This document shows positions 2,505-57,596 of a stretch of 64,000 nucleotides of DNA, one piece after another. The notes beneath the pieces were generated by a model. That model did not search any database. It was not told the DNA's origin and saw only the letters and a program-made list of their open reading frames with translations. Every line of letters starts with the position of its first letter. Position 1 is the first letter of the stretch. The translations under genes were made by a program, and so were the position numbers. Source of the stretch: Chitinophagaceae bacterium (lineage in GTDB: Bacteria; Bacteroidota; Bacteroidia; Chitinophagales; Chitinophagaceae); contig SEAC01000015.1 in NCBI GenBank assembly GCA_004173235.1, positions 310,001-374,000 of the forward strand. Reading direction: 5' to 3'.

Positions 2505-4421
2505 ATGGCGTACAAGAACCTGCAGCAGTTTATCGAAGTATTGGAGAAAGAAGGCGAGTTGCTCCGGATTAAAACCTTTGTTGATCCGAAGCTCGAGATC
2601 GCCGAAATCACCGACCGCATGTCGAAAACAGCGGGCGGCGGCAAGGCGCTTCTTTTTGAAAATACAGGCTACGACTTTCCGGTGCTGATGAACGCCTACG
2701 GCTCGGAGCGCAGGATGTGCCTCGCGCTCGGCGTGCAAAAGCTCGACGACGTGGCCGGCGACATCGAAGGACTTTTCAAGATGCTGTCTTCGCCCAAAGA
2801 AGGGATACTTGACAAGCTGCGCATGCTCCCGCGCCTCGCCGAATTTTCGAGCTGGATGCCCAAGGTGCGCAGCGGCCGTGGCGAGTGCCAGCAAGTGGTG
2901 ATGACCGATCCCGACATCAGCAAGTTGCCGGTGATCACCTGCTGGCCCAAGGACGGCGGGCCTTTTGTAACGCTTCCCGTCATTCATACAAAGGACCCGA
3001 ACACGGGCATCCGCAACGTGGGTATGTACCGCATGCAGGTGTTTGAAAAAACGATGACGGGCATGCACTGGCACAAGCACAAAGTGTCGGCGCGCCACTA
3101 CAACGAATACAAAAAGCTGGGTAAGCGCATGCCCGTGGCCGTGGCCCTCGGCGGCGACCCTGCCTACGCCTATTCGGCTACCGCTCCGTTGCCCGACAAC
3201 GTGGATGAATACATGCTCGCGGGCTTTCTTCGCAAAAAGAAAGTGGAACTGGTTCGCTGCATCACACAACCCGATGTGGAAGTGCCTGCCGATGCTGACT
3301 TCATCATTGAAGGGTATGTGGATCCGTCGGAGGAGATGATCTGGGAAGGTCCCTTCGGCGATCACACCGGCTATTACTCGCTGCCCGATTGGTACCCGCG
3401 CTTTCACATCACCGCCATCACGCACCGCAAGGATGCTGTATACCCTGCTACCATCGTGGGCATACCGCCGCAGGAAGATGCCTGGCTCATCAAAGCATCC
3501 GAGCGGATCTTCCTGGCACCGATGAAGATGACGCTCATTCCGGAGATCGTGGATATGGACATGCCGGTGGAAGGCGTAGCGCACAACCTCGTGATCGCGC
3601 AGCTGAAAAAGGACTACGCAGGCCAGGGACAAAAAGTAATGAATGCCATGTGGGGCGCGGGCCAGATGATGTTCAATAAGATCCTCGTGCTGACTGATGA
3701 AGGCACTCCGATACAGGACTACAAAGCGCTCGCGCAATACGTGTTTCGCAATGTCAACCCCGCTACGGACATCTATTTTTCGCAGGGCCCGATGGACGTG
3801 CTCGATCACAGCTGCAGCAAGCTTGGTTATGGCGGCAAGATGTGCATCGACGGCACCGGAAAGCATGAAGAAGAAGTGGATGACCGCTACACCTTCGCCA
3901 ACGGCTCGCGCGACCTTTCTTTTCTCAGCAACGACTTCCCCGAAATCAAGTCTGTGAATACGTTGCTGCTGCAGCAGGACATTCCCGTAGTTATACTGTC
4001 CGTGGCCAAGGAGCGTCCCAACCACCTGCGCGAACTGCACCAGCAGATCGGCGGCCGGCCGGAGCTCGAAGGAGTGAAGCTGCTGCTCTACGTGGAGCAT
4101 AATGTGGATGCCAACGACCTTGGTGTGGCGCTCTGGCGCTTTTGCAACAACCTCGATCCACGCCGCGATTCCTTCCTCTACGAAGGAGCGGCGGCCTCCG
4201 ATCCCGCGCGCCGCACCGCCTGCCTCGGTATGGATGGCACGCGCAAGACTGCCGAGCACGACGGCTTCCGCCGCGACTGGCCCAACATCATCGTTGCCGA
4301 CGATGCTACCATCAGCGCCGTAGATGCCAAATGGGACAGCCTCGGCATGGGTGCGTTCCTTCCCTCACCGTCGCTGCGCTTCCGCGAACAGATGTATGGG
4401 GAGGAGGCGGTGGCGTCGTGA
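2505..4421 (+). CDS. UbiD family decarboxylase, long menaquinone-type
   Basis: A 638-residue prenylated-FMN-dependent decarboxylase of the UbiD superfamily. The long form found in Bacteroidota is usually assigned to menaquinone biosynthesis (established family annotation; substrate inferred). It begins AYKNLQQFIEVLEKEGEL, the usual UbiD start. The core motif WEGPFGDHTGYYSLPDWYP lies near residues 285-303, and the long C-terminal domain has DGTRKT and GFRRDWP near the end. The ATG at 2505 is preferred to an in-frame TTG at 2496, which would lie inside the -7 element. The cofactor-making partner UbiX is not in the window. Confidence 0.93.
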   Translation: MAYKNLQQFIEVLEKEGELLRIKTFVDPKLEIAEITDRMSKTAGGGKALLFENTGYDFPVLMNAYGSERRMCLALGVQKLDDVAGDIEGLFKMLSSPKEGILDKLRMLPRLAEFSSWMPKVRSGRGECQQVVMTDPDISKLPVITCWPKDGGPFVTLPVIHTKDPNTGIRNVGMYRMQVFEKTMTGMHWHKHKVSARHYNEYKKLGKRMPVAVALGGDPAYAYSATAPLPDNVDEYMLAGFLRKKKVELVRCITQPDVEVPADADFIIEGYVDPSEEMIWEGPFGDHTGYYSLPDWYPRFHITAITHRKDAVYPATIVGIPPQEDAWLIKASERIFLAPMKMTLIPEIVDMDMPVEGVAHNLVIAQLKKDYAGQGQKVMNAMWGAGQMMFNKILVLTDEGTPIQDYKALAQYVFRNVNPATDIYFSQGPMDVLDHSCSKLGYGGKMCIDGTGKHEEEVDDRYTFANGSRDLSFLSNDFPEIKSVNTLLLQQDIPVVILSVAKERPNHLRELHQQIGGRPELEGVKLLLYVEHNVDANDLGVALWRFCNNLDPRRDSFLYEGAAASDPARRTACLGMDGTRKTAEHDGFRRDWPNIIVADDATISAVDAKWDSLGMGAFLPSPSLRFREQMYGEEAVAS

Positions 4422-4547
4422 GCCGTGAGCCGTCAGCGCGAACTCCCTGGGGTGGGGCGGCCACTGAGCGCCGGTTCCTTATTTCATTCGTTGGGTTTGG
4501 AGCTTACCTGCGTCGGCCCTGACGGCTGACGGCTCACGATTCACGAC
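4415..4547. repeat. Inverted 'gtgagccgtcag' word repeats around a GC-rich spacer
   Basis: The left arm (4415-4436) contains gtgagccgtgagccgtcag and overlaps the UbiD stop codon. The right arm (4519-4547) contains ctgacggctgacggctcac and a second cacgattcacgac. They are near reverse complements about 80 bp apart. The right arm runs straight into an ACTTTGG that could serve as a weak -7 element for the following gene. Related words recur at 11585-11613 at the start of folP. Confidence 0.7.
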
Positions 4548-4645
4548 TTTGGCACTCCCCTTGTCTTACCAGCACTATCAGCCGTTCGATACACTGGTGC
4601 CACCGCGCCGGCGCCCGGCGGCAAGCTAACCTCAACGACAAGGAA

Positions 4646-5563
4646 ATGAAAAACATCCTCATGGGCCTCCTGCTGCTGCTGGTGGCAGGAAGCGCCCCTG
4701 CGCAAACGCGCGACAACGCGGTGGACGGCAACACACTTCTGTGGCGCATTTCGGGCAAAGACCTGAAGCAGCCCTCTTATCTTTTTGGAACGATGCACAT
4801 GCTGTGCGCAACACAGATCGATTTGAGCGACAGCTTGCGCGACGCGATCAGGCGCTCCGATTACGTGTACCTCGAGCTCGACATGGAGAACATGCAGGAG
4901 CTGATGGGCGTGATGAGCAAAATGAAAATGACCGGCGACACCACACTCGCCGACCTGCTTCCCCGGTCTGCCTACGATTCGGTGCGCACCTTTTTCTCCG
5001 ACAAGCCGGGCATGATCCCTTTTGCGATGCTGGAGAAATTCAAACCGATGCTTGCGGCTTCGGCCGTGATGGAATCGGACGTATCCTGCCAGAACCCTGT
5101 GGGCATGGAACAGCTGATCATGGTGGAGGCGCGGCAGCAGCACCGCAGCATTCGCGGGCTCGAAACAATGGCGTTTCAAATGAGCATCTTCGACTCCATT
5201 CCCTATCGCCTGCAGGCGCAGCAGCTGCTGGATTACGTGAAGAACTACGGAAAGAATGACAGCCGCAAAACCTTCGATGAGATGATGGCCGCCTATGTAA
5301 ACCAGCGCCTCGACCGCCTCGAAGAGATCACGCTCCAGGAAAACGGGGGCATGGAACCTTATATGGACGTGCTCCTGTATCGCCGCAACATCGACTGGGT
5401 GGCGAAAATGAGCAGACTGATGCCCGCCAATGCGGTAGTGGTGGCCGTGGGCGCAGGGCATCTTCCCGGCGACAAAGGCGTCATCAACTTATTACGCAAG
5501 GCAGGTTACACCGTTGAGCCGGTTACCAACAACATGCTGAAAAAATTAGAGAAGAGCCTGTGA
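4646..5563 (+). CDS. TraB/GumN (TIKI-like) family protein
   Basis: A 305-residue exported protein with a signal peptide ending ...AGSAPAQ. Two family signatures are present: SYLFGTMHML near residues 45-54 (the GTxH motif) and VGAGHLPGDKGVINLLRKAGY near residues 270-290 (the GxxH motif). These motifs define the TraB/GumN family, which is structurally related to TIKI metalloproteases. The two conserved His residues are present, so activity is plausible, but the substrate is unknown. It is convergent with ndk. Confidence 0.87.
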   Translation: MKNILMGLLLLLVAGSAPAQTRDNAVDGNTLLWRISGKDLKQPSYLFGTMHMLCATQIDLSDSLRDAIRRSDYVYLELDMENMQELMGVMSKMKMTGDTTLADLLPRSAYDSVRTFFSDKPGMIPFAMLEKFKPMLAASAVMESDVSCQNPVGMEQLIMVEARQQHRSIRGLETMAFQMSIFDSIPYRLQAQQLLDYVKNYGKNDSRKTFDEMMAAYVNQRLDRLEEITLQENGGMEPYMDVLLYRRNIDWVAKMSRLMPANAVVVAVGAGHLPGDKGVINLLRKAGYTVEPVTNNMLKKLEKSL

Positions 5564-5584
5564 GCCGTTGAGGCGGTGAGATTG

Positions 5585-5707
5585 TTTCACCGCGAAGTCG
5601 CGAAGAATAAAAAGTCGCGCCAAGAGAAAATGAAACGTCCCGCATTTGCGGGACGTTTGTGTGAAAACTTAGCGTAGTCTTCTTTGACCTATTTCTTCGC
5701 GGTAACA
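5585..5707. repeat. Inverted 'cgcgaag' word repeats bracketing a terminator
   Basis: The left arm (about 5585-5630) reads caccgcgaagtcgcgaagaa and then aagtcgcgccaagagaaaa. The right arm (about 5664-5707) reads aaaacttagcgtagtcttc, then tttcttcgcggtaac. The two are imperfect reverse complements, with the terminator at 5633-5658 between them. Close relatives of the right arm occur at 30037-30094. Confidence 0.65.
5633..5658. terminator. Rho-independent terminator between convergent genes
   Basis: The hairpin is AAACGTCCCGC, loop ATTT, GCGGGACGTTT. The A-rich and T-rich flanks let it act in both directions, for the GumN-type gene on the plus strand and ndk on the minus strand. Confidence 0.8.
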
Positions 5708-5727
5708 AGCGAGAATTTAGAGGAGGC

Positions 5728-6144
5728 TTAGAATTGCTCCAGACCGGAGAAGAAGAAATCGCCTTCGATCTTTGCATTCTCGTCAGAGTCGGAGCCGTGA
5801 ACCGCGTTCTCACCAAGTGAAGTAGCGAATTTCTTGCGGATGGTGCCTTCCTCAGCCTGGGCAGGGTTGGTGGCGCCAATGAGCGTGCGGAAGTCGGCAA
5901 CCGCGTTTTCTTTTTCGAGGATGGCCGCGATGATGACGCCGCTGCTCATGAACTGGGTGAGCTCTCCGTAGAAAGGGCGCTCTTTGTGCACGGCGTAAAA
6001 CTCACCCGCCTTGTCGAGGCCGAGTTTGGTTTGCTTGAGGGCTACCACGCGGAAGCCAGCCTTAGTGATTTGATCCAGGATAGCGCCGGCGTGGCCATTA
6101 CGCATAGCGTCGGGCTTTATCATCGTAAACGTGCGGTTGCTCAT
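5728..6144 (-). CDS. ndk: Nucleoside diphosphate kinase
   Basis: A 138-residue enzyme that transfers the terminal phosphate between nucleoside tri- and diphosphates through a phospho-histidine. It begins [17 protein letters not shown], and the active-site block [12 protein letters not shown], with the catalytic His, lies near residues 113-124. Length matches the family. The ATG at 6144 is chosen because earlier in-frame codons encode non-conserved sequence and lie over the promoter. A consensus -7 element (TATCTTTG, 6171-6164) gives a leader of about 15 nt. Confidence 0.96.
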
Positions 6145-6163
6145 AATTGTGTTTTTGCGGCGG

Positions 6164-6191
6164 CAAAGATAGGGGCACCGCCTTATTTTTG
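6164..6191. promoter_or_regulatory. Divergent -7 elements of ndk and the M48 peptidase gene
   Basis: TATCTTTG on the minus strand (6171-6164) serves ndk. TATTTTTG on the plus strand (6184-6191) serves the M48 gene. The elements are 12 bp apart, so the -33 region of each promoter overlaps the other promoter's start region, and polymerases are likely to compete. Confidence 0.6.
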
Positions 6192-6233
6192 GCAAGGCTC
6201 AGTTTTTGAAAGGAATTGCTCAATGACCCCATT

Positions 6234-7685
6234 ATGAAACGAATCCTCCTTTTCGGCTCCCTAGCCGCAGCGGTGGCGCTGGCCAACTCCTGCGCCCGCA
6301 ACCCCGTAACAGGCAAAAAGCAAGTTGTATTTACCTCCGAAGCCCAGGAGATCCAGCAGGGCGCCGAGGCCGACCCGCAGATCGTGGCGCAGTTCGGGCT
6401 TTACCCCGATAGTGCGCTGCAGCGCTATATCCGCGAACGCGGAAATGCCGTTGCTGCCGTCAGTCATCGCCCCGGCCTGCAATGGAGCTACAAGATCCTC
6501 GACTCCGACGTGATCAACGCCTTCGCCACGCCCGGCGGCTACGTGTATTTCACGCGTGGCATCATGGCCCATTTCAACGATGAAGCACAGATGGAAGGCG
6601 TGCTCGGCCACGAAACCGGCCACGTTACGGCCCGCCACTCGGTGATCCAGCAGCGCAACCAGATGCTGGGCCAGGTAGGGCTTATCGCAGGCGTCATCAT
6701 CAATCCCAACCTCGGCCAGTTTGCCGACCAGGTGTCGCAGGGATTGGGGCTGCTCCTCCTCAAATTTGGCCGCGACGACGAACGCCAGGCCGACGAGCTG
6801 GGCGTGGAATATTCTACCAAGCTGGGCTACAACGCCCACCGGATGGCGGAATTCTTCAACACGCTGAAGCGCCAGAGCCAGGCCGCGGGCGGACAAACCC
6901 TGCCCCCGTTCCTCAGCACGCACCCCGACCCGGGCGACCGCTTCGTGACCGTCAACCAGCTCGCTACCGAATGGCAGCAAAAGACCGGCAACACTGCCAA
7001 CCTTAAAGTGAACCGCGATACGTACCTCCGCCGCCTCGAAGGCCTGGTGTACGGCGCCGACCCGCGCCAGGGCTTTGTGGAAAACGGTGCGTTCTACCAT
7101 CCCGAGCTGCGCTTCCAGTTCCCGGTTCCGCAGGGCTGGCAGTCACAAAATTCACCCACGCAGTTCCAGATGGCGCCCCAGGACGGAAAAGCGCTGATGA
7201 TCCTGACACTCGCCGAAGGAAATAACCTGCAGACCGCCGCCACGGCTCAATTGCAGAAATACGGTCTTACCGCCCGATCGCAGCGCAGCGGCACCGTAAA
7301 CGGCATCCCGGCCTACATCGTTGTGGCCGACCAGCAGCCGCAGCAGCAGGGCGCTGCGCCATTGCGCACGCTGAACTACTTCCTGCAGTACAACAACGCG
7401 ATCTATCACATGATCGGTGTAACGTCTGCAACAGATTACCCCGCATACGAAAACCAGTTTGCAAGCGTAATGGAAGGCTTCCGCAGCCTGACTGAAGCCG
7501 ACAAGCTGAACCGCAAGCCCGAGCGCGTACACATCCGCACGGTAGCCACGGGCGGCACGCTTCGCCAGGTGCTTACCAGCTACAATGTTCCGGAGCGCCG
7601 GCTCGACGAGCTGTCGATCCTCAACGGGATGCAGCTGACCGACAACGTAGCGAAGGGAACGCTGATCAAAACGGTAGGACCGTAA
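6234..7685 (+). CDS. M48 family metalloprotease with C-terminal LysM-like domain
   Basis: A 483-residue BepA/Ste24-like zinc protease. It has a lipoprotein-type signal (VALANSCARNPVTGKKQ; Cys about residue 20). The zinc motif HETGH lies in GVLGHETGHVTARHS near residues 125-139, and the third ligand Glu lies in RQADELGVEY near 185. The C-terminal ~50 residues (GTLRQVLTSYNVPERRLDELSILN) look like a LysM domain, suggesting peptidoglycan contact. BepA-type enzymes act in outer membrane protein quality control (family knowledge; role here inferred). The ATG at 6234 begins the signal peptide. Confidence 0.92.
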   Translation: MKRILLFGSLAAAVALANSCARNPVTGKKQVVFTSEAQEIQQGAEADPQIVAQFGLYPDSALQRYIRERGNAVAAVSHRPGLQWSYKILDSDVINAFATPGGYVYFTRGIMAHFNDEAQMEGVLGHETGHVTARHSVIQQRNQMLGQVGLIAGVIINPNLGQFADQVSQGLGLLLLKFGRDDERQADELGVEYSTKLGYNAHRMAEFFNTLKRQSQAAGGQTLPPFLSTHPDPGDRFVTVNQLATEWQQKTGNTANLKVNRDTYLRRLEGLVYGADPRQGFVENGAFYHPELRFQFPVPQGWQSQNSPTQFQMAPQDGKALMILTLAEGNNLQTAATAQLQKYGLTARSQRSGTVNGIPAYIVVADQQPQQQGAAPLRTLNYFLQYNNAIYHMIGVTSATDYPAYENQFASVMEGFRSLTEADKLNRKPERVHIRTVATGGTLRQVLTSYNVPERRLDELSILNGMQLTDNVAKGTLIKTVGP

Positions 7686-7705
7686 ACAGTAGAACTACAA
7701 TAGGA

Positions 7706-10723: not shown

Positions 10724-11613
10724 CATTGGGCTGAATCAACGGCTGCACACAGGCGGATGGCTTCGCGCGCTTCGCGCACATCGTGCACACGGAGCAGCTG
10801 CGCGCCTTTTTGCAACGCGATGGTATGCAACACGGTGCTTCCGTTGAGCGCCTCCGCAGCACTGACGCCGAGCGTTCGGTATACCGTTGCCTTGCGCGAA
10901 AGGCCCACCAGCAGCGGGCTTCGCAGCTGATGGAAAAGCGAAAGGTGCCGGAGCAGTTGAAAGTTGTGTTCGGCGGTCTTTGCAAATCCAAACCCGGGAT
11001 CGATAATGACGTCGTGGATGCCCGCCGCGTGCAGTTCCACCTTGCGGCGCGCGAGGTCGTCGAACACTTCGGTTAGCACGTCGTCGTATTGGGCCAGCGA
11101 CTGCATCGTTTGCGGGTTGCCGCGGCGATGCATCAGCACATAGGGCACGCGCAGGCCCGCAACCGTGGAAATGAGTTCCTCGTCGATGCTCCCCGCGCTC
11201 ACATCGTTTACAAGCACCGCACCCGCTTCCACTGCGGCCTGCGCCACCTTCGCATAAAAAGTATCAATGGAAATCAGCGCCTCCGGAAATGCGCTCCGGA
11301 TGGATGCAATGGCCGGCATTACACGTTCCAGTTCCTCCTCGGCCGAAACGCGTTCGCTTCCGGGGCGCGTGCTCTGCCCGCCCACGTCGAGCATCCATGC
11401 GCCGGCTTCAAGCATCGCGCCCGCGCGTTCCAGCAGGGTCGATTGCTGCTGCACGCGGCTGCCCGGATAGAACGAATCGGGCGTTACGTTGAGGATGCCC
11501 AGCACCTTGGGTTCGTTGATGAGAAGCAGCCTGCCACGCGCATTGAGGCTGAATTGCGGGCGATCGCTTGCAGAAACACTTTCCAGAGCTGACGGTTCAA
11601 GGCTCACGTTCAC
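10723..11613 (-). CDS. folP: Dihydropteroate synthase
   Basis: A 296-residue enzyme that joins p-aminobenzoate to the pterin diphosphate in folate synthesis. Signatures: LGILNVTPDSFYPGS (~38-52), DVGGQSTRPGSERVS (~76-90), NDVSAG (~138), DPGFGFAKTAEHN (~207-219) and GLSRK (~239). The start is a GTG at 11613; no other in-frame start lies before the conserved region. The first ~15 codons are read from the same gtgagcc/ccgtcagc words found in intergenic DNA at 4415-4547, so the N-terminus is partly repeat-derived. A -7 element (TACTTTAG, 11632-11625) lies 11 nt upstream. Confidence 0.94.
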   Translation of the reverse strand: MNVSLEPSALESVSASDRPQFSLNARGRLLLINEPKVLGILNVTPDSFYPGSRVQQQSTLLERAGAMLEAGAWMLDVGGQSTRPGSERVSAEEELERVMPAIASIRSAFPEALISIDTFYAKVAQAAVEAGAVLVNDVSAGSIDEELISTVAGLRVPYVLMHRRGNPQTMQSLAQYDDVLTEVFDDLARRKVELHAAGIHDVIIDPGFGFAKTAEHNFQLLRHLSLFHQLRSPLLVGLSRKATVYRTLGVSAAEALNGSTVLHTIALQKGAQLLRVHDVREAREAIRLCAAVDSAQ

Positions 11614-13368: not shown

Positions 13369-13390
13369 CCCATCACCTTCTCGATCACTC

Positions 13391-13462
13391 GTTCTCTCGT
13401 TCTGTTGCTCTCATGTTCTCTCGTTCTCATGTTCTCTCGTTCTCATGTTCTCTCGTTCTCAT
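13391..13462 (+). repeat. Tandem 16-bp word array ahead of the ABC permease gene
   Basis: Three perfect copies of gttctctcgttctcat occupy 13415-13430, 13431-13446 and 13447-13462. Degraded copies precede them from about 13377. The array is open in the permease frame and adds a false N-terminus rich in Ser, Leu and Val. It ends 10 bp before the real ATG, and the following ataccttctccc may act as a weak -7 element. Confidence 0.85.
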
Positions 13463-15367: not shown

Positions 15368-15486
15368 GTTTACAGTTTAGAAGTTTTCCAGTTCATAGTT
15401 CCGCGATGCACAGTAGAGGCAAAGATACAGTTCCCATCAACCCTGGTTTTAGCCAACTTCAAACTGTAAACTTCTAAACTGTAAAC
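15368..15486. repeat. 19-bp inverted repeat bracketing the DUF721 promoter
   Basis: gtttacagtttagaagttt (15368-15386) is the exact reverse complement of 15468-15486. The arms are 81 bp apart. The DUF721 -7 element (15427-15420) sits between them. Extra partial copies of the word (aaactgtaaac, agttttccagttcatag) flank the arms. Confidence 0.85.
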
Positions 15487-15489
15487 TTT

Positions 15490-16618: not shown

Positions 16619-16733
16619 GGTTCCGGAGGATTCCTGATGGTTCCTGAAGGTTTCTGCCGCTTCCGGGCCAGATTGCGCGGAGATTGGCGGGTAACCAATT
16701 ACCAATAAACCAATAGACCAATAAACCAATAAC
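16619..16733. repeat. Two word arrays between recF and pdhA
   Basis: The first (16619-16656) repeats variants of ggttcctgaagg and ggttccggagg. The second (16692-16733) repeats accaataaacc with variants such as accaatagacc. The second ends 16 bp before the pdhA -7 element. The accaataaacc family recurs at 24463, 28440 and 39843. Confidence 0.75.
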
Positions 16734-23110: not shown

Positions 23111-23182
23111 GGTAAGGGTGTTTGGGGAAAAAGTGCAAAAGCCCTGCCAGTCTCCGGCGGCGTTCCAACGAACAACGTGAAT

Positions 23183-23270
23183 GGTCAATCGTCAATCTCT
23201 TCTCAAAACTCAAAACTCATTACTCATTACCACATTACCACATTCCCCATTACCCCATTATCACACCCAT
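23183..23270. repeat. Word array upstream of prfB
   Basis: Successive words: gtcaatcgtcaatc, tcaaaactcaaaactc, attactcattaccac, attaccacattcccc, attaccccattatc. The actcattactcatt word is the reverse complement of the gagtaatgagt array at 43556-43620. The gtcaatcgtcaatc word resembles 57409-57450. Confidence 0.75.
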
Positions 23271-23287: not shown

Positions 23288-23293
23288 CGCCCT

Positions 23294-24386
23294 ATGACAC
23301 AAGAAGCGATTAAAGATATGAGGGACCGCGTTGTTGTCCTGAGGAGGTTTCTTTGACGTCGAGAACCGACGCCATAAGATAACCCAGGATAAACAAATGT
23401 CCCTGTCGCCCGGTTTTTGGGACGACAATGCCCGCGCAACGGGTATGCTCAAGGAAATCAAGGTAAACGAATACTGGACCGGCCTTTACGAATCGGTAGA
23501 GGGCGCCGTGGAAGATTTCGCCGTGCTCTTCGAATTCTGGAAGGAAGGAGAGGGGTCGGAAGACGACGTGCGCGTGGCCTACGACAAGGCCCTTGCCGCC
23601 ATCGAAGACGCGGAGTTCAAAAGCACGCTCAACCAACCCGAAGACGAGCTGCCTGCCGTGCTGCAGATCAACTCGGGCGCGGGCGGCACCGAAAGCCAGG
23701 ACTGGGCCGAAATGCTGGCACGGATGTACCGGATGTATGGCGAGCGCCAGGGCTGGAGCGTTACCGAGCTCGATTGGACCGATGGCGATGGTGCGGGCAT
23801 TAAAACCGCCACCTACCAGTTCGACGGACCATTTGCGTACGGCTTCCTCAAGGCCGAAAGCGGTGTTCACCGCCTCGTGCGCATCTCGCCCTTCGACTCG
23901 AACGCCCGCCGTCACACTTCGTTCGTATCCGTGTTCGTATACCCGCTGGTCGACAACTCCATCGAGATCGAGATCAAGCCTGCCGACATCAAGATGGAAA
24001 CATCGCGAAGCGGCGGCGCCGGCGGACAGAACGTGAACAAGGTCGAAACGAAGGTGCAGCTCACGCACATTCCCACGGGCATCGTTGTGGTTTGCCAGCA
24101 GGATCGTTCGCAGCTGGGCAACCGCGAGCGCGCGATGGAAATGCTCCGTAGCCGTCTGTACGAGATCGAGCTGCGCAAGCGCAATGAAGCGAAGGATGCC
24201 GTGAATGCCAACAAGAAAAAGATCGAGTGGGGCTCGCAGATCCGCAGCTACGTGTTTCACCCTTACAAGATGATCAAAGACCACCGCACCGATTACGAAG
24301 TAGGCAACATCGGCCCCGTGATGGACGGCGAACTCGATGGTTTCATCAAGGCCTACCTGATGTCGCAAAAAGACGAAGAATCGTAG
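23294..24386 (+). CDS. prfB: Peptide chain release factor 2 (programmed +1 frameshift)
   Basis: RF2 recognises UGA and UAA stop codons. Frame 1 codes 20 residues from ATG 23294 to an in-frame TGA at 23354-23356; translation must shift +1 there and continue from GAC 23355 for 343 residues, giving 363 in total, the normal RF2 length. The stop-codon-recognition SPF motif ([11 protein letters not shown], ~199) and the catalytic GGQ motif ([17 protein letters not shown], ~240) are intact. Without the shift only a 20-residue peptide would be made. The ATG at 23397, inside the second frame, should not be used as the start. Confidence 0.96.
23342..23357 (+). promoter_or_regulatory. prfB autoregulatory frameshift site
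   Basis: AGGAGG, a 3-nt spacer TTT, the slippery CTT and the UGA-C stop context reproduce the classic RF2 recoding site. Low RF2 lets ribosomes pause at UGA and slip +1. The internal Shine-Dalgarno AGGAGG is notable because gene starts in this window lack such sequences. Confidence 0.93.
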
Positions 24387-24462
24387 AAACGCGCTATGCG
24401 CGTCTCCCGAATGTGGTAATGTGAGACAGCCGTTTGATGGTATCAACCTGGTATGTCCAACG

Positions 24463-24506
24463 TTACCAATAAACCAGTAAACCGATCAACTAATAACCCA
24501 ATAAAC
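24463..24506 (+). repeat. 'accaataaac' word array ahead of pruA
   Basis: Words: taccaataaaccagtaa, accgatcaactaataa, cccaataaacgc. The array is open in the pruA frame and would add an Asn/Pro-rich false N-terminus. It belongs to the family at 16692, 28440 and 39843. Confidence 0.75.
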
Positions 24507-28354: not shown

Positions 28355-28472
28355 AATTAGTTGATTAGTTCATTGGTTTATTGGTAAAGAGGCCGCTCCT
28401 GCGGCCTCTTTTACATTTTGTACTGTTGGCAGCGAATGGCCAATAAACCAATGAACCACTAAACCAATAAAC
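28355..28472. repeat. Inverted 'ccaataaac' word arrays bracketing a terminator
   Basis: The left array occupies 28355-28386, the right 28440-28472. The 17-mer ccaataaaccaatgaac at 28440-28456 is the exact reverse complement of 28368-28384. A perfect terminator hairpin (28387-28412) lies between the arms, and the right array runs directly into the pyrR -7 element. Confidence 0.85.
28387..28412 (+). terminator. Terminator between the third barrel gene and pyrR
   Basis: The hairpin is AAGAGGCCGC, loop TCCT, GCGGCCTCTTTT. It lies upstream of the predicted pyrR transcription start, so it belongs to the barrel gene rather than to a pyr attenuator. Confidence 0.85.
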
Positions 28473-29035: not shown

Positions 29036-29081
29036 ATACATTTCACATCTCACATTTCCCATCTCGCATCTAACCTCTAAC
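29036..29081 (+). repeat. 'cacatctcac' word array ahead of pyrB
   Basis: Words: catttcacatctcac, atttcccatctcgc, atctaacctctaac. The same word family forms the arrays at 50161-50206 and 50748-50799. It ends 11 bp before the pyrB ATG, so it is either promoter or leader. Confidence 0.75.
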
Positions 29082-29092
29082 TTCACCGCTCA

Positions 29093-39707: not shown

Positions 39708-39875
39708 AATTGGTTTATTGGTTCATTCGTTTATTGGTACAGCCGCTGCAACGGGCGCGGTATAAAAAATGATAAAGCCGCTCCCGGAGCGGCTTTTATA
39801 ATGTGCGTTATCATTTCTGCGAAGCAACGGTCGGCGTAGCCTTACCAATAAACCACTAAACCCATCCACCAATCA
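39708..39875. repeat. Inverted 'ccaataaac' word arrays bracketing a terminator
   Basis: The left array (39708-39739) repeats ggtttattggttcattcg; the right (39843-39875) reads taccaataaaccactaaac. They are imperfect reverse complements around the terminator at 39774-39797, the same layout as at 28355-28472. Confidence 0.75.
39774..39797. terminator. Bidirectional terminator between the PorP/SprF and M56 genes
   Basis: The hairpin is AAAGCCGCTC, loop CCG, GAGCGGCTTT. A and T tracts on both sides fit the convergent genes. Confidence 0.85.
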
Positions 39876-43555: not shown

Positions 43556-43656
43556 CAATGAGTAATGAGTAATCAGTGATGAGTAATCAGTGATGAGTAA
43601 TCGGTAATGAGTGATCAGTAGTGAAAAGGGAGGCCATCGGCTTCCCTTCTCCTTTA
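43556..43656 (+). repeat. 'gagtaatgagt' word array followed by a terminator
   Basis: The array (43556-43620) repeats atgagtaatgagtaatcagt with variants gatgagtaatcagt and gtaatgagtgatcag. It is followed by a hairpin at 43626-43656 (AAGGGAGGCC, ATC, GGCTTCCCTT, then a T-rich run) that should terminate the DUF4142 transcript. A matching reverse word, cgttattcattattc, lies at 43697-43711. Confidence 0.75.
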
Positions 43657-50158: not shown

Positions 50159-50160
50159 GA

Positions 50161-50206
50161 GAGGATGTTAGATGTGAGATGTGAGATGTTAGATGTCGGA
50201 TGTCTG
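50161..50206. repeat. 'agatgtgagatg' word array between the DinB and GNAT genes
   Basis: Words: gatgttagatgtgag, atgtgagatgttag, atgtcggatgtctg. It is the reverse-complement partner of the array at 50748-50799 on the far side of the DinB gene. Confidence 0.78.
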
Positions 50207-50219
50207 TTGGGGCGGTAGG

Positions 50220-50690
50220 CTAAGACTTGTACTGCAGTTCTTTTTTCAGGAAAACGATCTGGCCGAGGTGGTAGTAGCTGTGTTCGATCATGCCGGCGAT
50301 GTTGCGGTAATAGGAGCCGTAGCGCTCGGCAACGAAGTGCTCGTCCAAACGCTCTTCGGGCAGGGCCTCTATGAGCGTTGCAAGCGCTTCGGCGTCTCCT
50401 TTTATATGCGTTTGAAGTGCCTGCCAGTCGGCTTCCCCGGCGAGGGGCGGCAGCGCGAATGCGTCGCGGTCACTGCTTTCGAGCGGACCACCTTCGAGCA
50501 CCTTGCGTTGTGCCGCAACGTAGAAGTGGATATGGTAGGTGAGCGCGGCAATGCTGTTGGCCGACAGTTTCCCTACGGCGGTTGCCAGTGCCCAGTCCAC
50601 ATCACTCAGCACGGCAAACAGGCTGGATTCGGTCCAGTTGCCGCCGAAATAGAATTCGCGTACCTGGCGGGCGAGTGCAGAAGCAATCAT
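50220..50690 (-). CDS. DinB family protein (DUF1572-like)
   Basis: A 156-residue four-helix protein. The predicted metal ligands are H in TYHIHFYVAAQRKVLEG (~52-56) and H in IEHSYYHLGQIVFLKKEL (~135-142), a common DinB arrangement. DinB proteins are often metal-dependent thiol transferases, but function here is unknown. The gene is bracketed by two arrays of the same word family in opposite orientation. Confidence 0.88.
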   Translation of the reverse strand: MIASALARQVREFYFGGNWTESSLFAVLSDVDWALATAVGKLSANSIAALTYHIHFYVAAQRKVLEGGPLESSDRDAFALPPLAGEADWQALQTHIKGDAEALATLIEALPEERLDEHFVAERYGSYYRNIAGMIEHSYYHLGQIVFLKKELQYKS

Positions 50691-50747
50691 AGAAAGGCGT
50701 TTTGATGAAGTATGGATTTTCTGAATAAAAAAACGTTGTCATCACCT

Positions 50748-50799
50748 CCAACATCTCACATTTCACATCTCACATCTGACATTTCACATCTTACATCAC
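50748..50799. repeat. 'cacatctcac' word array upstream of the DinB gene
   Basis: Words: aacatctcacatttcac, atctcacatctgac, atttcacatcttacatcac. It overlaps the stop codon of the following lipoprotein gene and matches the array before pyrB (29036-29081). Confidence 0.78.
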
Positions 50800-52914: not shown

Positions 52915-52934
52915 GGTTTAAAGATAATTAAGTC

Positions 52935-53502
52935 ACCGTCCCTGCCACCCTTCGGCTGCGCTCAGGTGCATCCCTGCCACCCTTCGGCTGCGCTCAGGTG
53001 CATCCCTGCCACCCTTCGGCTGCGCTCAGGGTGACAGGGGGTGACCCTTCCTTCGGCTGCGCTCAGGGTGACAGGGGCTTAGCCTTCTTTCGGCTGCGCT
53101 CAGTCTGTGCCTGCCACCCTTCGGCTGCGCTCAGGGTGACAGGGGGCGACCCTTCTTTCGGCTGCGCTCAGTCCGTGCCTGCCACCCTTCGGCTGCGCTC
53201 AGTCCGTCCCTGCCACCCTTCGGCTGCGCTCAGGTGCATCCCTGTCACCCTTCGGCTGCGCTCAGGGTGACAGGGGGCGACCCTTCTTTCGGCTGCGCTC
53301 AGGGTGACAGGGGGCGACCCTTCCTTCGGCTGCGCTCAGGGTGACAGGGGGTGACCCTTCTTTCGGCTGCGCTCAGTCCGTGCCTGCCACCCTTCGGCTG
53401 CGCTCAGGGTGACAGGGAATTATTCTCCTGCTCCCGCTGTCATGGTGAGCGTAGCCGAACCAGACAGCGGCCTTTGGTGAGCGCAGCCGAACCATGACAG
53501 CC
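52935..53502. repeat. Palindromic repeat array, 14 copies of TTCGGCTGCGCTCAG plus an inverted tail
   Basis: Fourteen copies of TTCGGCTGCGCTCAG occur from 52951 to 53406 with spacing of 31-38 bp. Many copies form a hairpin CCCTGTCACCCT, core, AGGGTGACAGGG. Between copies only a few spacer types recur (gtgcatccctgccaccc, tccgtgcctgccaccc, ggtgacagggggcgaccc). From 53437 to 53502 the core appears twice in the opposite orientation (TGAGCGCAGCCGAA and one variant), framed by gctgtcatggt and accatgacagc. No transposase or cas gene is adjacent. It fills the whole gap between nnr and the serine hydrolase gene. Confidence 0.93.
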
Positions 53503-53504
53503 GC

Positions 53505-54677
53505 TCACTCTTCGCCTTCCTGCTGCTTCCCATCGTAATTGCCAAACGCATTGTACAGCGCGCGGGCGAAGGGATATACCGCCGGGTTGAACTTGTTGCT
53601 GAGGATGATGACCGTGCCCTGCTCGTGCGTGAGGCGCGCGAAGGCGGAGTTGAAGCCATGCCAATGGCCATTGTGGTAGATCACCTGCTTGTCTTTGGGT
53701 GCTTTCAGCAGCCGCCAGCCGAGGCCGTAATTGTGCATCGAAGGACGCTCGTTGCTGTTGGGTGTCGCTGCACTGTCGGCCATCGCCTTGCCCAGCACAA
53801 GCCCCTGATACCAGGCCTGGTCCCACTTGAGCAGGTCCTGAGGCGTGGAGTATACGTTCTTGTCGCCATAGGGTCCATCGCTGAAGTCGAGGATCCAGGG
53901 TGCATTTCCGCGGTTGTATGACTGGTTGAACGTAGCGTCGTTGACAGTTTTGACGTAGGTGTGGGTCATCCCGAACCGATCGAAGAAATTCTTCTTCATG
54001 TAAGCGGGGAACTTCTCGCCGGTAACTTTTTCCACGATCGAAGCCAGCAGCACGTAGTTGGTGTTGCAATAGCTGAAGTGCACATCGGGACGATAGGAGC
54101 GCGGCACGTTCCAGGTGAGGAGCGTGTTGACGATGTCTTCGTTGGTCGCCAGCTTTTTGCGGTCCCAGCGCTTGTCCTTGTCCATATAGTACAAGTAGTT
54201 GGGCAGCCCGCTGCGGTGGTTGAGCAGCATCCGCACCGTGACGGGGTAGGGGAAGCCTGGGAAGTATCTCGAAACGGAATCGTTGAGCCCCACCTTTCCT
54301 CTTTCCACCAGTTGCAGCACGGCCGCGGCGGTGAATGGCTTCGACGTAGAAGCGATCTGCAGTGGCGTTTCGGCGGTCAGCGAGTCGCGCGTTTTGAAGT
54401 CGCGGAAGCCCTGGTAGTGCTCATACACGGGCACGCCGTTCTTGGCGATGAGGATGCCGCCGCTGAAGTTGCGCAGGAAACCGGTGCGCTGAATGAAGGA
54501 CTCGATCGCGTCGTGGTAGCGTTTTTTCTCGGCCTCCGGAAGCTCGCCCGGCGGCTTGAGTGCGCGCATTTCGGTGCTGTCTACCGCTTCGATCTTAACG
54601 TTCGACCCCGAGCCATTGCATCCGCCCAACAGAGTGAGCAGGAGGCATGCGGCGGGTAAGGATTTATGTAGGTTCAT
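53505..54677 (-). CDS. Serine hydrolase, beta-lactamase/DD-peptidase family, lipoprotein
   Basis: A 390-residue lipoprotein (LLTLLGGC, Cys 20). The class C-like serine hydrolase fold carries the SxxK motif STSK at residues 110-113, the YxN motif YCN at 203-205 and the HNG motif (VIYHNGHWHGF, ~350) in place of KTG. This set is typical of penicillin-binding-protein-like esterases and D-aminopeptidases, so true beta-lactamase activity is not implied. The ATG at 54677 is the signal-peptide start; upstream in-frame codons are translated repeat. Confidence 0.92.
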   Translation of the reverse strand: MNLHKSLPAACLLLTLLGGCNGSGSNVKIEAVDSTEMRALKPPGELPEAEKKRYHDAIESFIQRTGFLRNFSGGILIAKNGVPVYEHYQGFRDFKTRDSLTAETPLQIASTSKPFTAAAVLQLVERGKVGLNDSVSRYFPGFPYPVTVRMLLNHRSGLPNYLYYMDKDKRWDRKKLATNEDIVNTLLTWNVPRSYRPDVHFSYCNTNYVLLASIVEKVTGEKFPAYMKKNFFDRFGMTHTYVKTVNDATFNQSYNRGNAPWILDFSDGPYGDKNVYSTPQDLLKWDQAWYQGLVLGKAMADSAATPNSNERPSMHNYGLGWRLLKAPKDKQVIYHNGHWHGFNSAFARLTHEQGTVIILSNKFNPAVYPFARALYNAFGNYDGKQQEGEE

Positions 54678-54714
54678 CAGGTTAAATAGGGGAAAGGGGG
54701 CGAAGTTAGGGTTC

Positions 54715-54834
54715 AGGAAGTTTAGGAGTTTAGGAGGTTTAGGAGTTGTTCGATACCGACGCATGGTGTTGCAAAGGCATGCTCCATACTGCGCACTGCG
54801 GCTGAACCGGCTAAACCTCTAAACTCCTAAACCC
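54715..54834. repeat. Inverted 'gtttaggag' word arrays around the divergent hydrolase/serA promoters
   Basis: The left arm (54715-54751) repeats gtttaggagtttaggagg; the right arm (54811-54834) reads ctaaacctctaaactcctaa. They are near reverse complements. Between them, on the minus strand, ATGCCTTTG (about 54779-54771) is a likely -7 element for the hydrolase gene. The layout copies that of 15368-15486. Confidence 0.75.
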
Positions 54835-54856
54835 TTTTAACCCTTTTATTTGCAAT

Positions 54857-56083
54857 ATGAATACCAGCTACCCGAAGGAGAAGATCAACATCCTGCTGCT
54901 CGAGAATGTGAGCGAGAAGGCAGCAGATAATTTCCGGAGGGCGGGCTATACACAAGTGCGCAAACTCACGCGCGCGCTGCCCGAAGAAGAACTGATGCAG
55001 GAGCTGCGCAATTGCCACCTCCTCGGCATCCGCTCCAAAACGCAGCTGACCGCGCGGGCGCTGGAAGCCGCCGAGCGCCTGCAGGCAGTGGGCTGTTTTT
55101 GCATCGGCGTCAACCAGGTAGACCTCGAAGCCGCAACGAAGAGCGGCGTAGCCGTATTCAATGCGCCCTACAGCAACACGCGTTCGGTGGCCGAGCTCGT
55201 CATCGGCGCAGCCATTATGCTGATCCGCCGCGTACCCGATAAGAACCGCGCTGCACACGAGGGTATCTGGAAAAAAGAAGCCTCCGGCGCCTATGAGCTC
55301 CGCGGCAAAACGCTCGGCATCATCGGTTACGGCAACATCGGCTCGCAGGTGAGCGTGCTGGCCGAAGCACTCGGTATGAAGGTGCTTTTTTACGACATCG
55401 AAACGAAGCTCCCGCTGGGCAACGCCTCCGATGCCCGTAGCCTGAAAGCCTTGCTGGGCGCGGCCGACGTGCTGACCATCCATGTGCCCGAAACGGAGCA
55501 GACGCGCAACCTCCTCAACAAGACCAACCTGAGGTGGCTGAAGAAAGGTGCCATCGTGATCAACTATGCGCGCGGCGAAGTGATCGAATTGGTCGCGCTG
55601 CGCAAGGCCCTCGAAAGCGGCCACGTGGGGGGCGCTGCCGTGGATGTATTTCCGATCGAGCCCGAGAAAAATGGCGACCGGTTTGAAACGCCGCTGCAGG
55701 GCTTGCCCAACGTTTTGCTCACGCCGCACATCGGCGGTTCCACCGAAGAGGCGCAGGTGAATATCGGCGAAGACGTCAGCAGCAAGCTGTTGCAATACCT
55801 CGAAAAGGGCTCCAGCCTTGGTTCGCACTCGATCCCAGCGCTTGCTTTGCCCCCGCAGGAAGGGGCGCACCGCATCCTGCACATCCACCGCAATGTTCCC
55901 GGCGTACTTTCGCAGATCAACGGACAACTCTCGCAGCACCGGATCAATATCGTGGGGCAATACCTGAAGACGAACGATGCCATCGGCTATGTAGTGGTAG
56001 ATGTGGACAAGCAGCTTTCGAAGCGGGCCCTGAGCCTGCTGAAGGAAGTTCCGGAGACCGTCAAGGTGCGATTATTGTATTGA
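54857..56083 (+). CDS. serA: D-3-phosphoglycerate dehydrogenase
   Basis: A 408-residue NAD-dependent dehydrogenase, first enzyme of serine synthesis. The NAD motif is GIIGYGNIGSQVSVLAEALG (~153-172). Catalytic residues are in NYARGEVIE (Arg, ~236), VDVFPIEPE (~260) and TPHIGGSTEEAQ (His, ~288). The C-terminal ACT domain (about 335-408) suggests feedback control by serine. Length matches the E. coli-type enzyme. A TTTATTTGC lies just before the ATG and may be a degenerate -7. Confidence 0.95.
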   Translation: MNTSYPKEKINILLLENVSEKAADNFRRAGYTQVRKLTRALPEEELMQELRNCHLLGIRSKTQLTARALEAAERLQAVGCFCIGVNQVDLEAATKSGVAVFNAPYSNTRSVAELVIGAAIMLIRRVPDKNRAAHEGIWKKEASGAYELRGKTLGIIGYGNIGSQVSVLAEALGMKVLFYDIETKLPLGNASDARSLKALLGAADVLTIHVPETEQTRNLLNKTNLRWLKKGAIVINYARGEVIELVALRKALESGHVGGAAVDVFPIEPEKNGDRFETPLQGLPNVLLTPHIGGSTEEAQVNIGEDVSSKLLQYLEKGSSLGSHSIPALALPPQEGAHRILHIHRNVPGVLSQINGQLSQHRINIVGQYLKTNDAIGYVVVDVDKQLSKRALSLLKEVPETVKVRLLY

Positions 56084-56111
56084 TCGGGTAGCGTTTGTAA
56101 ACGACCCATCT

Positions 56112-57410
56112 ATGAAAGTAGTCATCGTCGGAGCAGGCTTTGCCGGCCTCCGTCTAGCCCGGAAGCTGAATAACAAGGAAGGTTTTGAAGTACTGCTGAT
56201 CGACAAGTTCAACTACCACCAGTTCCAGCCGCTCTTCTACCAGGTGGCCACCGCCGCCCTCGACGCTTCCAACATTTCCTTTCCATTGCGCAAGGCTTTT
56301 CATAAGAGCCGCAACGTGCGCATCCGCGTGGAGGAACTGAAGCAGGTGCTCCCGGCCGAAAAGAAGATCATCACCGAGTCGGAGACGCTCGATTATGACG
56401 TGCTCGTGCTGGCGCTCGGAGCCGACACCAACTTCTTCGGCAATCAGAACGTGATGACCAACGCCTTCCCGATGAAGTCGACCGTGGAGGCGATCCAGCT
56501 GCGGCACCGGTTCATTCAGAATTTCGAAGATGCGGTGCGGGCCGACAATCCCGAAGACCGTGCGCGGCTGATGAATGTTGTGATCGCCGGCGGCGGACCA
56601 ACAGGAGTGGAGCTGGCAGGAGCGCTTGCGGAGATGAAGAAATACGTGCTTCCTTCGGACTACCCTGAGCTGGATTTCAACCAGATGAAGATCATGCTGC
56701 TTGATGGCGGCGACCGGCTGCTGGGCGCGATGGACCCGAAGTCGTCGGCGGATGCGCAGCATTACCTCGAAAAGCTCGGCGTCGAAGTACACCTTAAATC
56801 CATCGTCAAAGACTATGATGGACGCAGCGTGCAAATGGCCGACGGCGCGAACATTCCGTCGGAGCTTGTGATCTGGGCTGCCGGCATCCGTGGTAATGTT
56901 CCGGAAGGCATCGACAAAAGCCTCGTGGTGCGCGGCAACCGCATCAGCGTCGACCGTTACAACAAAGTGCAGGGCCTCGATAGCGTTTACGTGCTCGGCG
57001 ACCTGGCCGCGATGGTGACGCCGCAGTATGCCAATGGGCACCCGCAGGTGGCTTCGGTAGCCATTCAGCAGGCGGAGTTGCTGGGACGCAACCTTGCAGC
57101 GATGCAGCAGGGCGGTGCGCTCAAAGAATACGAATACAAAGACAAGGGCTCGATGGCTACGGTGGGACGCAACCTTGCCGTGGTGGACGTGCCGAAGCCG
57201 AAGCTCCATTTCCGGGGCCTTTTTGCCTGGCTGATCTGGATGGGGCTACACTTGTTTCTCATCCTCGGTGTGAAGAACAGGCTGTTCGTGTTCCTCAACT
57301 GGGTGTACAGCTATATTACCTACGACCAGAGCCTGCGGCTGATCTTCAAAGAATTTTACCGGCCGAAGCAGCCGACTGATCCGGTGAAGCAGGCGGAGGT
57401 GAATGCGTGA
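56112..57410 (+). CDS. Type II NADH dehydrogenase (NDH-2-like)
   Basis: A 432-residue FAD oxidoreductase. The FAD-binding GxGxxG is VVIVGAGFAGLRLARKL (3-19), the NADH-binding motif VVIAGGGPTGVELAGALAE (~155-173), and the second FAD motif YVLGDLAAM (~295). The C-terminal region (WLIWMGLHLFLILGVKNR, ~375-392) is the membrane-anchoring hydrophobic helix of NDH-2. It should pass electrons from NADH to menaquinone without proton pumping. Confidence 0.92.
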   Translation: MKVVIVGAGFAGLRLARKLNNKEGFEVLLIDKFNYHQFQPLFYQVATAALDASNISFPLRKAFHKSRNVRIRVEELKQVLPAEKKIITESETLDYDVLVLALGADTNFFGNQNVMTNAFPMKSTVEAIQLRHRFIQNFEDAVRADNPEDRARLMNVVIAGGGPTGVELAGALAEMKKYVLPSDYPELDFNQMKIMLLDGGDRLLGAMDPKSSADAQHYLEKLGVEVHLKSIVKDYDGRSVQMADGANIPSELVIWAAGIRGNVPEGIDKSLVVRGNRISVDRYNKVQGLDSVYVLGDLAAMVTPQYANGHPQVASVAIQQAELLGRNLAAMQQGGALKEYEYKDKGSMATVGRNLAVVDVPKPKLHFRGLFAWLIWMGLHLFLILGVKNRLFVFLNWVYSYITYDQSLRLIFKEFYRPKQPTDPVKQAEVNA

Positions 57411-57596
57411 GTCGGGAATCCTCAATCGTGAATCGTCGATCGGGAATCGGCAAGGCTGGCGCCGGTAGGGGGCGGCCTGCGGCCTTGGGGAAGGAAGACA
57501 CGACAACGCGACGAACGCGGATGCAATGATTCACAGTACTGCTCGTTGTCCTTTTTCTTTGCGCCGTCGCGTCTTTGCGGCTTTGCGTGATTTGTG
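57409..57596. repeat. Two word arrays after the NDH-2 gene
   Basis: The first (57409-57450) overlaps the stop codon and repeats gtcgggaatcctcaatcg, gaatcgtcgatcgggaatc. The second (57551-57596) reads ctttgcgccgtcgcgtc, tttgcggctttgcgtg. A looser reverse partner of the second (cgacaacgcgacgaacgcgg) lies at 57501-57520. No gene is seen between 57411 and 57666. Confidence 0.65.

Follow-up and report, generated by a model that had tools for sequence, protein, structure and literature searches.

Results

The window, by which we mean the whole 64,000-nucleotide stretch analyzed (contig SEAC01000015.1 of a Chitinophagaceae bacterium, positions 310,001 to 374,000), includes a release-factor gene, an OTCase-like gene, a DUF4142 gene, a DinB-like gene and an ORF with a beta-lactamase fold, and the gaps between its genes hold arrays of short words (Table 1). 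The DinB-like gene sits between two GATGTGA arrays. The gene caller was custom-made and its start positions may be wrong; that of the beta-lactamase-fold ORF may have been called too far upstream. At the sites listed by the original prediction the words are present, except that those at 50161 and AATGAGT at 23183 occur as the reverse complement, and those at 11585 and 57551 only loosely.

Table 1. Repeat arrays and words in the window (window positions)
Feature	Position	Strand	Evidence
CGTGAGC array across left gene's stop codon, left arm	4417..4437	+	score 11.5, period 7
GTGAGCC-family array, right arm opposite 4417-4437	4519..4546	-	score 13.5, period 7
Loose GTGAGCC-like array at stop codon	5554..5580	+	score 9.0, weak
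GAGAACATGAGAAC-family array, fills gap ahead of right gene	13380..13460	-	score 28, period 8
GTTTACAGTTTAG, left arm	15368..15386	+	sequence; arms match 21.5
GTTTACAGTTTAG inverted, right arm	15460..15488	-	TRF row 15455-15488; arms match 21.5
GGTTCCTGAA array (period 10), left border	16621..16656	+	score 13.5
CCAATAAA array upstream of -7-like motif; word unlike left border's	16701..16732	-	score 19; sequence
Three consecutive arrays: a weak GTCAATC array of ambiguous direction, then AATGAGT and TAATGGGG arrays pointing away from release-factor gene	23177..23260	-	scores 9.0, 17.0, 15.5
Short AATGTGGTAATGTGAG stretch past release-factor gene	24410..24425	+	sequence alone
Degenerate CCAATAAA array within first codons of ORF called at 24453	24465..24506	-	TRF score 49
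ATTGGTTT array, left arm, ahead of GC hairpin with T run	28356..28385	+	score 14.5; arms match 21
ATTGGTTT array, right arm, immediately upstream of TATTTTCG and ATG	28440..28472	-	score 15
GATGTGA-family array ahead of OTCase-like gene, without partner	29038..29084	-	score 17.5
ATTGGTTT array, left arm, convergent gap	39709..39738	+	score 12
ATTGGTTT inverted, right arm	39844..39873	-	TRF score 32; arms match 19
AATGAGT/AATCAGT array past DUF4142 gene	43557..43619	+	score 21
GATGTGA array	50164..50204	+	score 24
GATGTGA array	50751..50797	-	score 22.5
TTCGGCTGCGCTCAG hairpin-unit array	52936..53417	.	TRF score 653, period 236
AGTTTAGG array, left arm, inside called start of beta-lactamase-fold ORF	54702..54747	+	TRF score 64
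TAAACTCC word, right arm, then AACCCTTTT pair	54811..54848	-	scores 9 and 10, weak
GTGAATC/GGGAATC array	57417..57453	+	score 10; 9 G, 9 C; weak, without skew
CTTTGCG words	57561..57587	.	score 9; 9 G, 10 C; weak

The word arrays between genes are real. The score threshold varies from 9 to 14 among our counts; at 12 or above, an array was found in 10 of the 44 called gaps of the window and in 93 of 483 gaps in a 788-kb sample of the source genome (G000). The first contig had such an array in 56 of its 277 gaps, whereas all five dinucleotide-shuffled versions had none and three coding controls had 2, 0 and 0; the density thus greatly exceeds chance. The periods in the sample are mostly 7 and 8; among pooled arrays scoring at least 14, period 7 accounts for 117, period 8 for 68, period 10 for nine, period 9 for six and period 6 for one. 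These periods fall within the 5-11 nt that define a known kind of repeat, the intergenic heptamer and octamer simple-sequence arrays (LSSR/STRR-like), with 7 nt the most frequent as expected of that kind; being also more abundant outside genes than chance allows, the arrays belong to it. Heptanucleotide repeats of the cyanobacterium Calothrix are cited in PMC4692102. These STRR repeats, 7-bp tandem words with several families per genome, are alike by description. The Rfam 15 covariance models gave no match to the window at the gathering threshold, and a search for AATGAGT arrays in plasmids gave none either.

The same limited set of words turns up at dozens of sites. Five linked groups take in 104 of 116 arrays, a lower bound, single linkage merging related words; CCAATAAACCAATAA had 30 matches, CGTSARYCGTSARYC 222 and a run of four GATGTNN units 107. 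Among the word families originally proposed, exact counts in the 788-kb sample (intergenic/shuffled mean/coding) exceeded the shuffles for CCAATAAAC (31/1.0/6), CACATCTCAC (17/0/0), GAGTAATGAGT (9/0/0), GTGAGCCGTCAG (14/0/0), GTTCTCTCGTTCTCAT (3/0/0) and TTCGGCTGCGCTCAG (21/0/0), while CTTCGCGG (18/4.4/91), CTAAACTCCTAAAC (1/0/1), CTTCTAAACTG (2/0/0) and GTCAATCGTCAATC (2/0/0) were weak. TTCGGCTGCGCTCAG, although recurrent, is a different kind of repeat: it is a separate REP-like element with 61 copies genome-wide, and not a 7-8-bp word array.

The direction rule that the arrays follow is unexpectedly strict. When mid-gap arrays (those whose distances from the flanking genes differ by no more than 15% of the gap) are omitted, the G-rich strand reads outward from the adjacent gene in a ratio of 113:19 in the source genome (start borders, 49:6; stop borders, 64:13). 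The polarity is the same at both kinds of border and in all three gap classes, and 79 of 138 clear-sided arrays sit at stop borders. The 73 arrays partnerless in their gap are the most strictly oriented of all (58:3 outward among such orphans). Retrained gene calls at 80 named loci gave 17:0 for start borders and 16:7 for stop borders, and same-word neighbors within 300 bp of each other were convergent in 43 cases and divergent in one. The strand read into the gene has a C content of 0.297 and a G content of 0.107. Both borders were G>C outward in 9 of 11 gaps whose borders scored as different words, so the polarity does not need pairing. Similarity in the same orientation is partly a matter of composition, since shuffled arrays gave 77:8 at the threshold that yields 458:44 for the real ones. 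In another genus (G328) the polarity was not significant (6:3 and 8:2).

Several simple causes of this polarity can be set aside. The stop borders of array-free gaps have no such skew (G 0.260-0.266, C 0.257), which rules out a local mutational strand bias. Avoidance of inward start codons cannot be the sole cause, because the polarity is equally strong in convergent gaps (33:4); in the small subset of arrays lacking any NTG, the ratios were 9:2 in the source genome and 6:4 and 6:0 in two relatives (G010 and G012, respectively). Avoidance of inward TTG was rejected as well, the polarity persisting in TTG-free arrays (52:9).

In 61 of 356 gaps, where 4.25 were expected, one word stands at both borders in the form of inverted arms; G328 has 15 such gaps out of 70, where 1.2 were expected. 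Such gaps make up 22 of 59 convergent, 35 of 216 co-directional and 4 of 81 divergent ones. Between the arms lies sequence peculiar to each gap and variable among copies, with cores that look unrelated by eye except for GGACGTACC next to several CCAATAA arms. Within a gap, the two arms are no closer to each other than to arms of the same family in other gaps (33/61, p = 0.076), leaving gap-specific copying or compensatory pairing unsupported; any local copying must therefore be old or blurred. Neither the polarity nor the inverted arms had figured in the original prediction.

Placement is weakly conserved between species: 15 array-bearing gaps are shared with G010, where 11.1 were expected (p = 0.050), and 10 with G012, where 7.2 were expected (p = 0.040). 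Array densities in G012 are overestimates, because five of the seven stretches taken from it were chosen for CCAATAA matches. Relatives can carry other words in the same gap. Where both species have arms in orthologous gaps, the words differ in 5 of 10 (G010) and 2 of 4 (G012), one gap of each set being a REP gap. By eye, the hairpin terminators between arms occupy equivalent positions in relatives whose arms are not alike, and the idea of telomere-like addition at breaks, with G-rich strands outward, was dropped on this ground.

The proposed proximity to terminators and promoters did not hold as an enrichment. Terminator-like hairpins, under a strict test, occur in 10 of 61 inverted-arm gaps versus 46 of 295 others, and a -7-like motif in 24 of the 59 start flanks that carry an array versus 124 of 378 others. 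In 22 of the 24 flanks having the motif (35 of the 59 lack it), the start-side array lies upstream of it and therefore outside that transcript, which leaves mRNA-end stabilization unsupported as a common role.

Discussion

The best explanation in our judgment, at about an even chance, is that these are simple-sequence arrays generated by slippage and word copying, with gene borders acting as a filter on their direction. The arrays, whose words are of 7-8 bp and in some cases of 10, would expand through replication slippage, and words would spread by copying from gap to gap, without a transposase of their own. Arrays would persist almost solely where the G-rich strand leads away from the adjacent gene, wrong-way arrays being removed by purifying selection if their effect when read from the gap into the gene is harmful. 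In two-sided gaps, the one-way filter combined with local copying may produce inverted arms able to fold. Of the roles originally suggested, the best fit is self-copying simple sequence, given a lexicon recurring at dozens of places and words that differ at some orthologous gaps. Counting against slippage and copying is the slight excess of gaps shared with relatives, because selection for function would give the same. The lack of closer matching between arms within a gap, the compositional share of the same-orientation similarity and the non-significant polarity in G328 also weigh against this explanation.

Selected transcription insulators at gene borders are a possible but doubtful alternative. 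The inward RNA, which resembles a Rho loading site in being rich in C and poor in G, might halt stray transcription before it reaches the gene, or the outward G-rich strand might hinder a polymerase leaving the gene; in either form, words would be interchangeable, as only composition and direction count. The polarity, identical at start and stop borders and across the gap classes, is the best support for insulation, and the composition of the inward strand, the fact that start-side arrays mostly precede the -7-like motif where there is one, the richness of convergent gaps in inverted arms and the weakly conserved placement agree with it. However, the order of the gap classes is explained equally by tolerance, which in unconstrained gaps would give the same, 390 of the 483 sampled gaps have no array, and the polarity is weak in G328. 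To our knowledge, cyanobacteria lack Rho. A further point against insulation is that the available part of one report (PMC4692102) describes the same orientation preference in Nostoc, a cyanobacterium.

It is unlikely that the arms serve to pair in RNA or DNA around a terminator, as 3'-end stabilizers, terminator helpers or cruciforms. The excess of matching arms in both genera favors such stem-loops, as does folding in 8 of the 14 best-matching gaps of the source genome (those of at most 260 bp; z -3.8 to -10.4). However, the partnerless arrays are the most strictly oriented, different words face one another in about half of 23 two-sided gaps, arms are not gap-specific and terminator-like hairpins are not in excess.

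Related repeats are already in print for single words, including border orientation and inverted pairs (PMC4692102, PMC4679880, in the parts available), and the claim that no named element covers all the families was only partly right, heptamer simple-sequence arrays having been described there. In the available text of Rehm et al. (2015; PMC4692102), GGGAATC and GGGGA(T/C)T heptamers of Xanthomonas and Nostoc carry their G-rich strand in antisense ahead of ORFs and in sense past stop codons, and are fewer between divergent ORFs; convergent inverted pairs number 70-75 per Xanthomonas genome and only a few in Nostoc, the prominent repeats lie at different genes in two species, and G-quadruplexes were proposed for GGGAATC. 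Our arrays resemble these in being heptamers at ORF borders with an outward G-rich strand (at both borders in the source genome, not significantly in G328), few divergent cases and inverted pairs. Unlike that one word family per genome, as far as the same text goes, several unrelated words are found here, most without GGG, in Bacteroidota and also with periods of 8 and 10. In the accessible part of MacGregor (2015; PMC4679880), TAACTGA repeats of Beggiatoaceae, Cyanobacteria and five Bacteroidetes are intergenic, mostly in one orientation towards the start codon, and taken as translation sites beside it; ours are likewise intergenic heptamers with a preferred orientation. In Microcystis the orientation of the TAACTGA repeats is mixed (6 forward, 8 reverse and 8 between stop codons in 22 intergenic sets; PMC4679880), which argues against a universal rule. 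As far as these portions go, both reports leave the function of the arrays open. New relative to the published single-word arrays is the presence of several words in one genome under one direction rule.

Regulators specific to each word, acting through G-quadruplexes (GGGAATC) or translation sites (TAACTGA), would find support in the border orientation seen in the available parts of both reports (PMC4692102, PMC4679880), but are very improbable here as a general cause. Among clear-sided arrays, 104 of 138 lack GGG or CCC, and the polarity is kept without GGG/CCC (83:17 in the source genome) and without GG/CC (33:11; in small subsets, 5:2 in G010 and 5:1 in G012). The large share of arrays at stop borders and the differing words at orthologous gaps also stand against them.

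Mobile elements of the REP/MITE kind, moved by a Y1_Tnp (RAYT) transposase, are highly improbable. REP/BIME elements with a RAYT are extragenic, often form inverted pairs and are few in divergent gaps; the inverted pairs and convergent-gap bias here resemble them, and Y1_Tnp genes are present in 14 of 18 congeners. However, the word arrays have no conserved palindrome, no link to Y1_Tnp loci and, by eye, no shared core, the sequence between arms varying from copy to copy. At the three Y1_Tnp loci of the source genome, the flanks hold other palindromic repeats, rather than the same repeat flanking the RAYT gene, and only one locus (L236) has a word array, of GTTTGT, in a neighboring gap.

Many words, one orientation rule and words that differ in the same gap of relatives separate word identity from direction, and therefore argue against a word-specific binding protein and G-quadruplexes as general causes. 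We suggest, very tentatively, that the arrays may constitute a direction-coded border mark, in which the orientation of interchangeable low-complexity words, and not their sequence, would shield genes from stray transcription on both sides; words could then turn over freely, provided that G remains scarce on the inward-reading strand. Insulation and mere tolerance thereby become distinguishable by comparing the two orientations of an array.

Results

The assembly (G000; 3.76 Mb in 41 contigs) holds the window at C22:310001-374000. Genes were called with a purpose-built hexamer-based caller trained on the data, and arrays were detected by a self-match scan over lags 6-12, at a score of at least 12, in C22:230001-683728. 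This score was reached in 56 of 277 C22 gaps and in none in each of five dinucleotide shuffles, with 2, 0 and 0 in three coding controls. Over C22 and contig C10 together (788,463 bp), 93 of 483 gaps bear arrays. Six of the exact words first listed stood far above shuffled gaps and were absent or rare in coding DNA, while CTTCGCGG, CTAAACTCCTAAAC, CTTCTAAACTG and GTCAATCGTCAATC were weak as exact strings. Genome-wide, CCAATAAACCAATAA has 30 matches, four GATGTNN units 107 and CGTSARYCGTSARYC 222, the reversed pattern giving 0 each time. Array periods (score at least 14, five sets pooled) were 7 (117 arrays), 8 (68), 10 (9), 9 (6) and 6 (1), and single linkage placed 104 of 116 G000 arrays in five groups. 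ARAGORN found no tRNA in the window, and no Rfam family matched there.

Features and individual gaps discussed in the text
Feature	Location	Particulars
Release-factor gene (PCRF and RF-1 domains)	window ~23292-24386	TGA in CTTTGAC context ends the first codons; long ORF follows
DinB-like gene and the arrays beside it	window 50164-50797	flanked by opposite-facing GATGTGA arrays, one per neighbouring gap
TTCGGCTGCGCTCAG array	window 52936-53417	14 copies in 31-37-bp units; CCCTGCCACCC / GGGTGACAGGG flanks
Other inverted-repeat kinds, CCCCCTCTCCGGAAACCGGAGAGGGGG and AGAACGCAGAT elements	C22, at 301087, 106035, 362830 and -40777 from window start
Word change	97349 from window start	GTGAGCC vs GGTCAAT, direction kept
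Word change	257547 from window start	GTTTACA vs AATGCGGT, direction kept
Word change	102611 from window start	GTTTTCA vs GATGTCT, direction kept
Gap scored as different-word	C22 431860	by eye, same AATGNGNT word at both borders
Pyrophosphatase gene region, Longitalea arenae	L109 9775-12537	flanked by opposite-facing GATGTGCT-type arrays, one gap each side

Read outward from the adjacent gene, the arrays are poor in C (T 0.336, G 0.297, A 0.26, C 0.107). Among 138 clear-sided G000 arrays, G exceeded C outward in 113 and C exceeded G in 19, with 6 ties; the ratio was 49:6 at starts and 64:13 at stops, 33:4 in convergent and 13:2 in divergent gaps. The 73 arrays that lack a complementary array in their gap gave 58:3 with 2 ties (63 clear-sided). 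The 59 partnered arrays comprised 3 ties and 56 others, 45 of which were G-rich as a left arm or C-rich as a right arm. Independently of gene calls, same-word neighbours at most 300 bp apart in six sequence sets were convergent in 43 cases, divergent in 1 and in the same direction in 30, 14 of these being the REP unit. When the first 100 of the 222 CGTSARYCGTSARYC places were merged into array places, neighbours were convergent in 12 cases and divergent in 0. TTGAATA, one AT-rich word, occurs in both directions.

Similar arrays of different G000 gaps agreed in orientation in 458 cases and disagreed in 44 (316:36 against the congener G012, 203:21 against G010). Composition accounts for part of this agreement, since shuffled arrays also agree (77:8 at the same threshold; 10:1 at the next, against 373:33 for real arrays). 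Polarity was 34:11 in G010 and 35:8 in G012. In 80 named Bacteroidota loci, arrays lay in 33 of 759 gaps, at 17:0 for start borders and 16:7 for stop borders (p = 0.09). G328, which belongs to another genus of the same family, gave 6:3 and 8:2, without significance, and its arrays similar to those of G000 agreed in orientation at 122:85, which we count against the polarity rule. From the same set of loci, from which records near G000 itself may have been left out, the closest match to the window's H+-pyrophosphatase was Flavisolibacter longurius (84% identity), with other Chitinophagaceae.

When the left flank was compared with the reverse-complemented right flank, 61 of 356 gaps of at least 80 bp had matching arms (score at least 12; 4.25 expected from other partners). 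The first test, on C22 alone, gave 31 of 192 against 2.3, and G328 gave 15 of 70 against 1.2. By class, arms occupied 22 of 59 convergent, 35 of 216 co-directional and 4 of 81 divergent gaps. Where arrays were called at both borders (23 gaps), 12 scored as same-word (expected fraction 0.09) and 11 as different, of which 9 had G>C outward at both borders, the exceptions being C10 75768 and 130111. With families matched, the two arms of a gap did not resemble each other more closely than arms taken from separate gaps (33 of 61, p = 0.076).

The proposed proximity to terminators found no support as an enrichment: terminator-like hairpins occurred in 10 of 61 arm gaps and 46 of 295 others. The Bacteroidota -7 consensus is TAnnTT[TC][GA]. 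Nor did promoters stand out: 24 of 59 flanks with arrays and 124 of 378 others had a -7-like motif at most 60 bp from the start, and shuffled sequence gave 4.0 for the former. The array was upstream of the motif in 22 of these 24 flanks, the other 35 having no motif. The early TGA of the release-factor gene presumably resembles the known prfB programmed frameshift.

G010 and C22 share 226 syntenic gaps at a mean protein identity of 76%. In the 112 of these gaps with at least 60 bp on both sides, an element was present in both (15), in our genome only (25), in the relative only (14) or in neither (58). Stratified by class and length, shared placement was 15 against 11.1 expected in G010 (p = 0.050) and 10 against 7.2 in G012 (p = 0.040); an unstratified Fisher test for G010 gave an odds ratio of 2.8 (p = 0.049). 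Where both species had arms, the script labelled the words the same in 5 and different in 5 (G010, n=10), or 2 and 2 (G012, n=4), the 'different' label including the REP gap once in each relative; the label at 84624 is borderline between related words. The word changes listed in the table are clear ones. Array-bearing gaps numbered 27 of 96 in G012 (a biased sample), 4 of 38 in G010 and in G013, 4 of 23 in G003, 1 of 11 in G016 and 0 of 24 in G009, all congeners, and 35 of 251 over 400 kb of G010. CCAATAAACCAATAA was present in 5 of 38 genomes, ours included. Among 296 Bacteroidota genomes, 28 contained four GATGTNN units, representing 22 of 139 genera, and 6 were positive for the reversed control. 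A second array-rich genome, G326, of another class of the phylum, has 221 such matches in 3.8 Mb (reversed control, 8).

The TTCGGCTGCGCTCAG array is a REP-like hairpin array, distinct from the word arrays, with 61 exact copies of TTCGGCTGCGCTCAG in G000 and none in 400 kb of G010. Three Y1_Tnp (RAYT-like) loci (L235, L236, L237) lie amid other palindromic repeats, including GCGGCGC...GCGCCGC units. In CCAATAA arms (L004, L019, L024, L025, L026, L030), GGACGTACC or its complement is often seen by eye on the inner side; it is possibly the conserved head of that family alone.

Discussion

Rehm 2015 (PMC4692102) reports orientation and inverted pairs for GGGAATC, and MacGregor 2015 (PMC4679880) describes TAACTGA repeats, whose orientation is mixed in Microcystis. 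Long simple repeats were surveyed by Mrazek 2007, as a citing paper describes. Searches of open-licence full text, which takes in a minority of subscription journals, showed no published account of many words sharing this orientation rule in Bacteroidota.

Among functional readings, a putative role in transcription insulation best fits the direction and position of the arrays. Paired arms may also act as stem-loops: of the 14 best arm gaps, the eight of at most 260 bp gave z of -3.8 to -10.4 in RNA folding. Such a role is possible though unneeded, because polarity is strictest in arrays without a partner. A word-specific protein is unlikely as the general cause, because words change at orthologous places. 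The evidence favours arrays of simple sequence that form and spread on their own and are subject to a filter on direction at gene borders.
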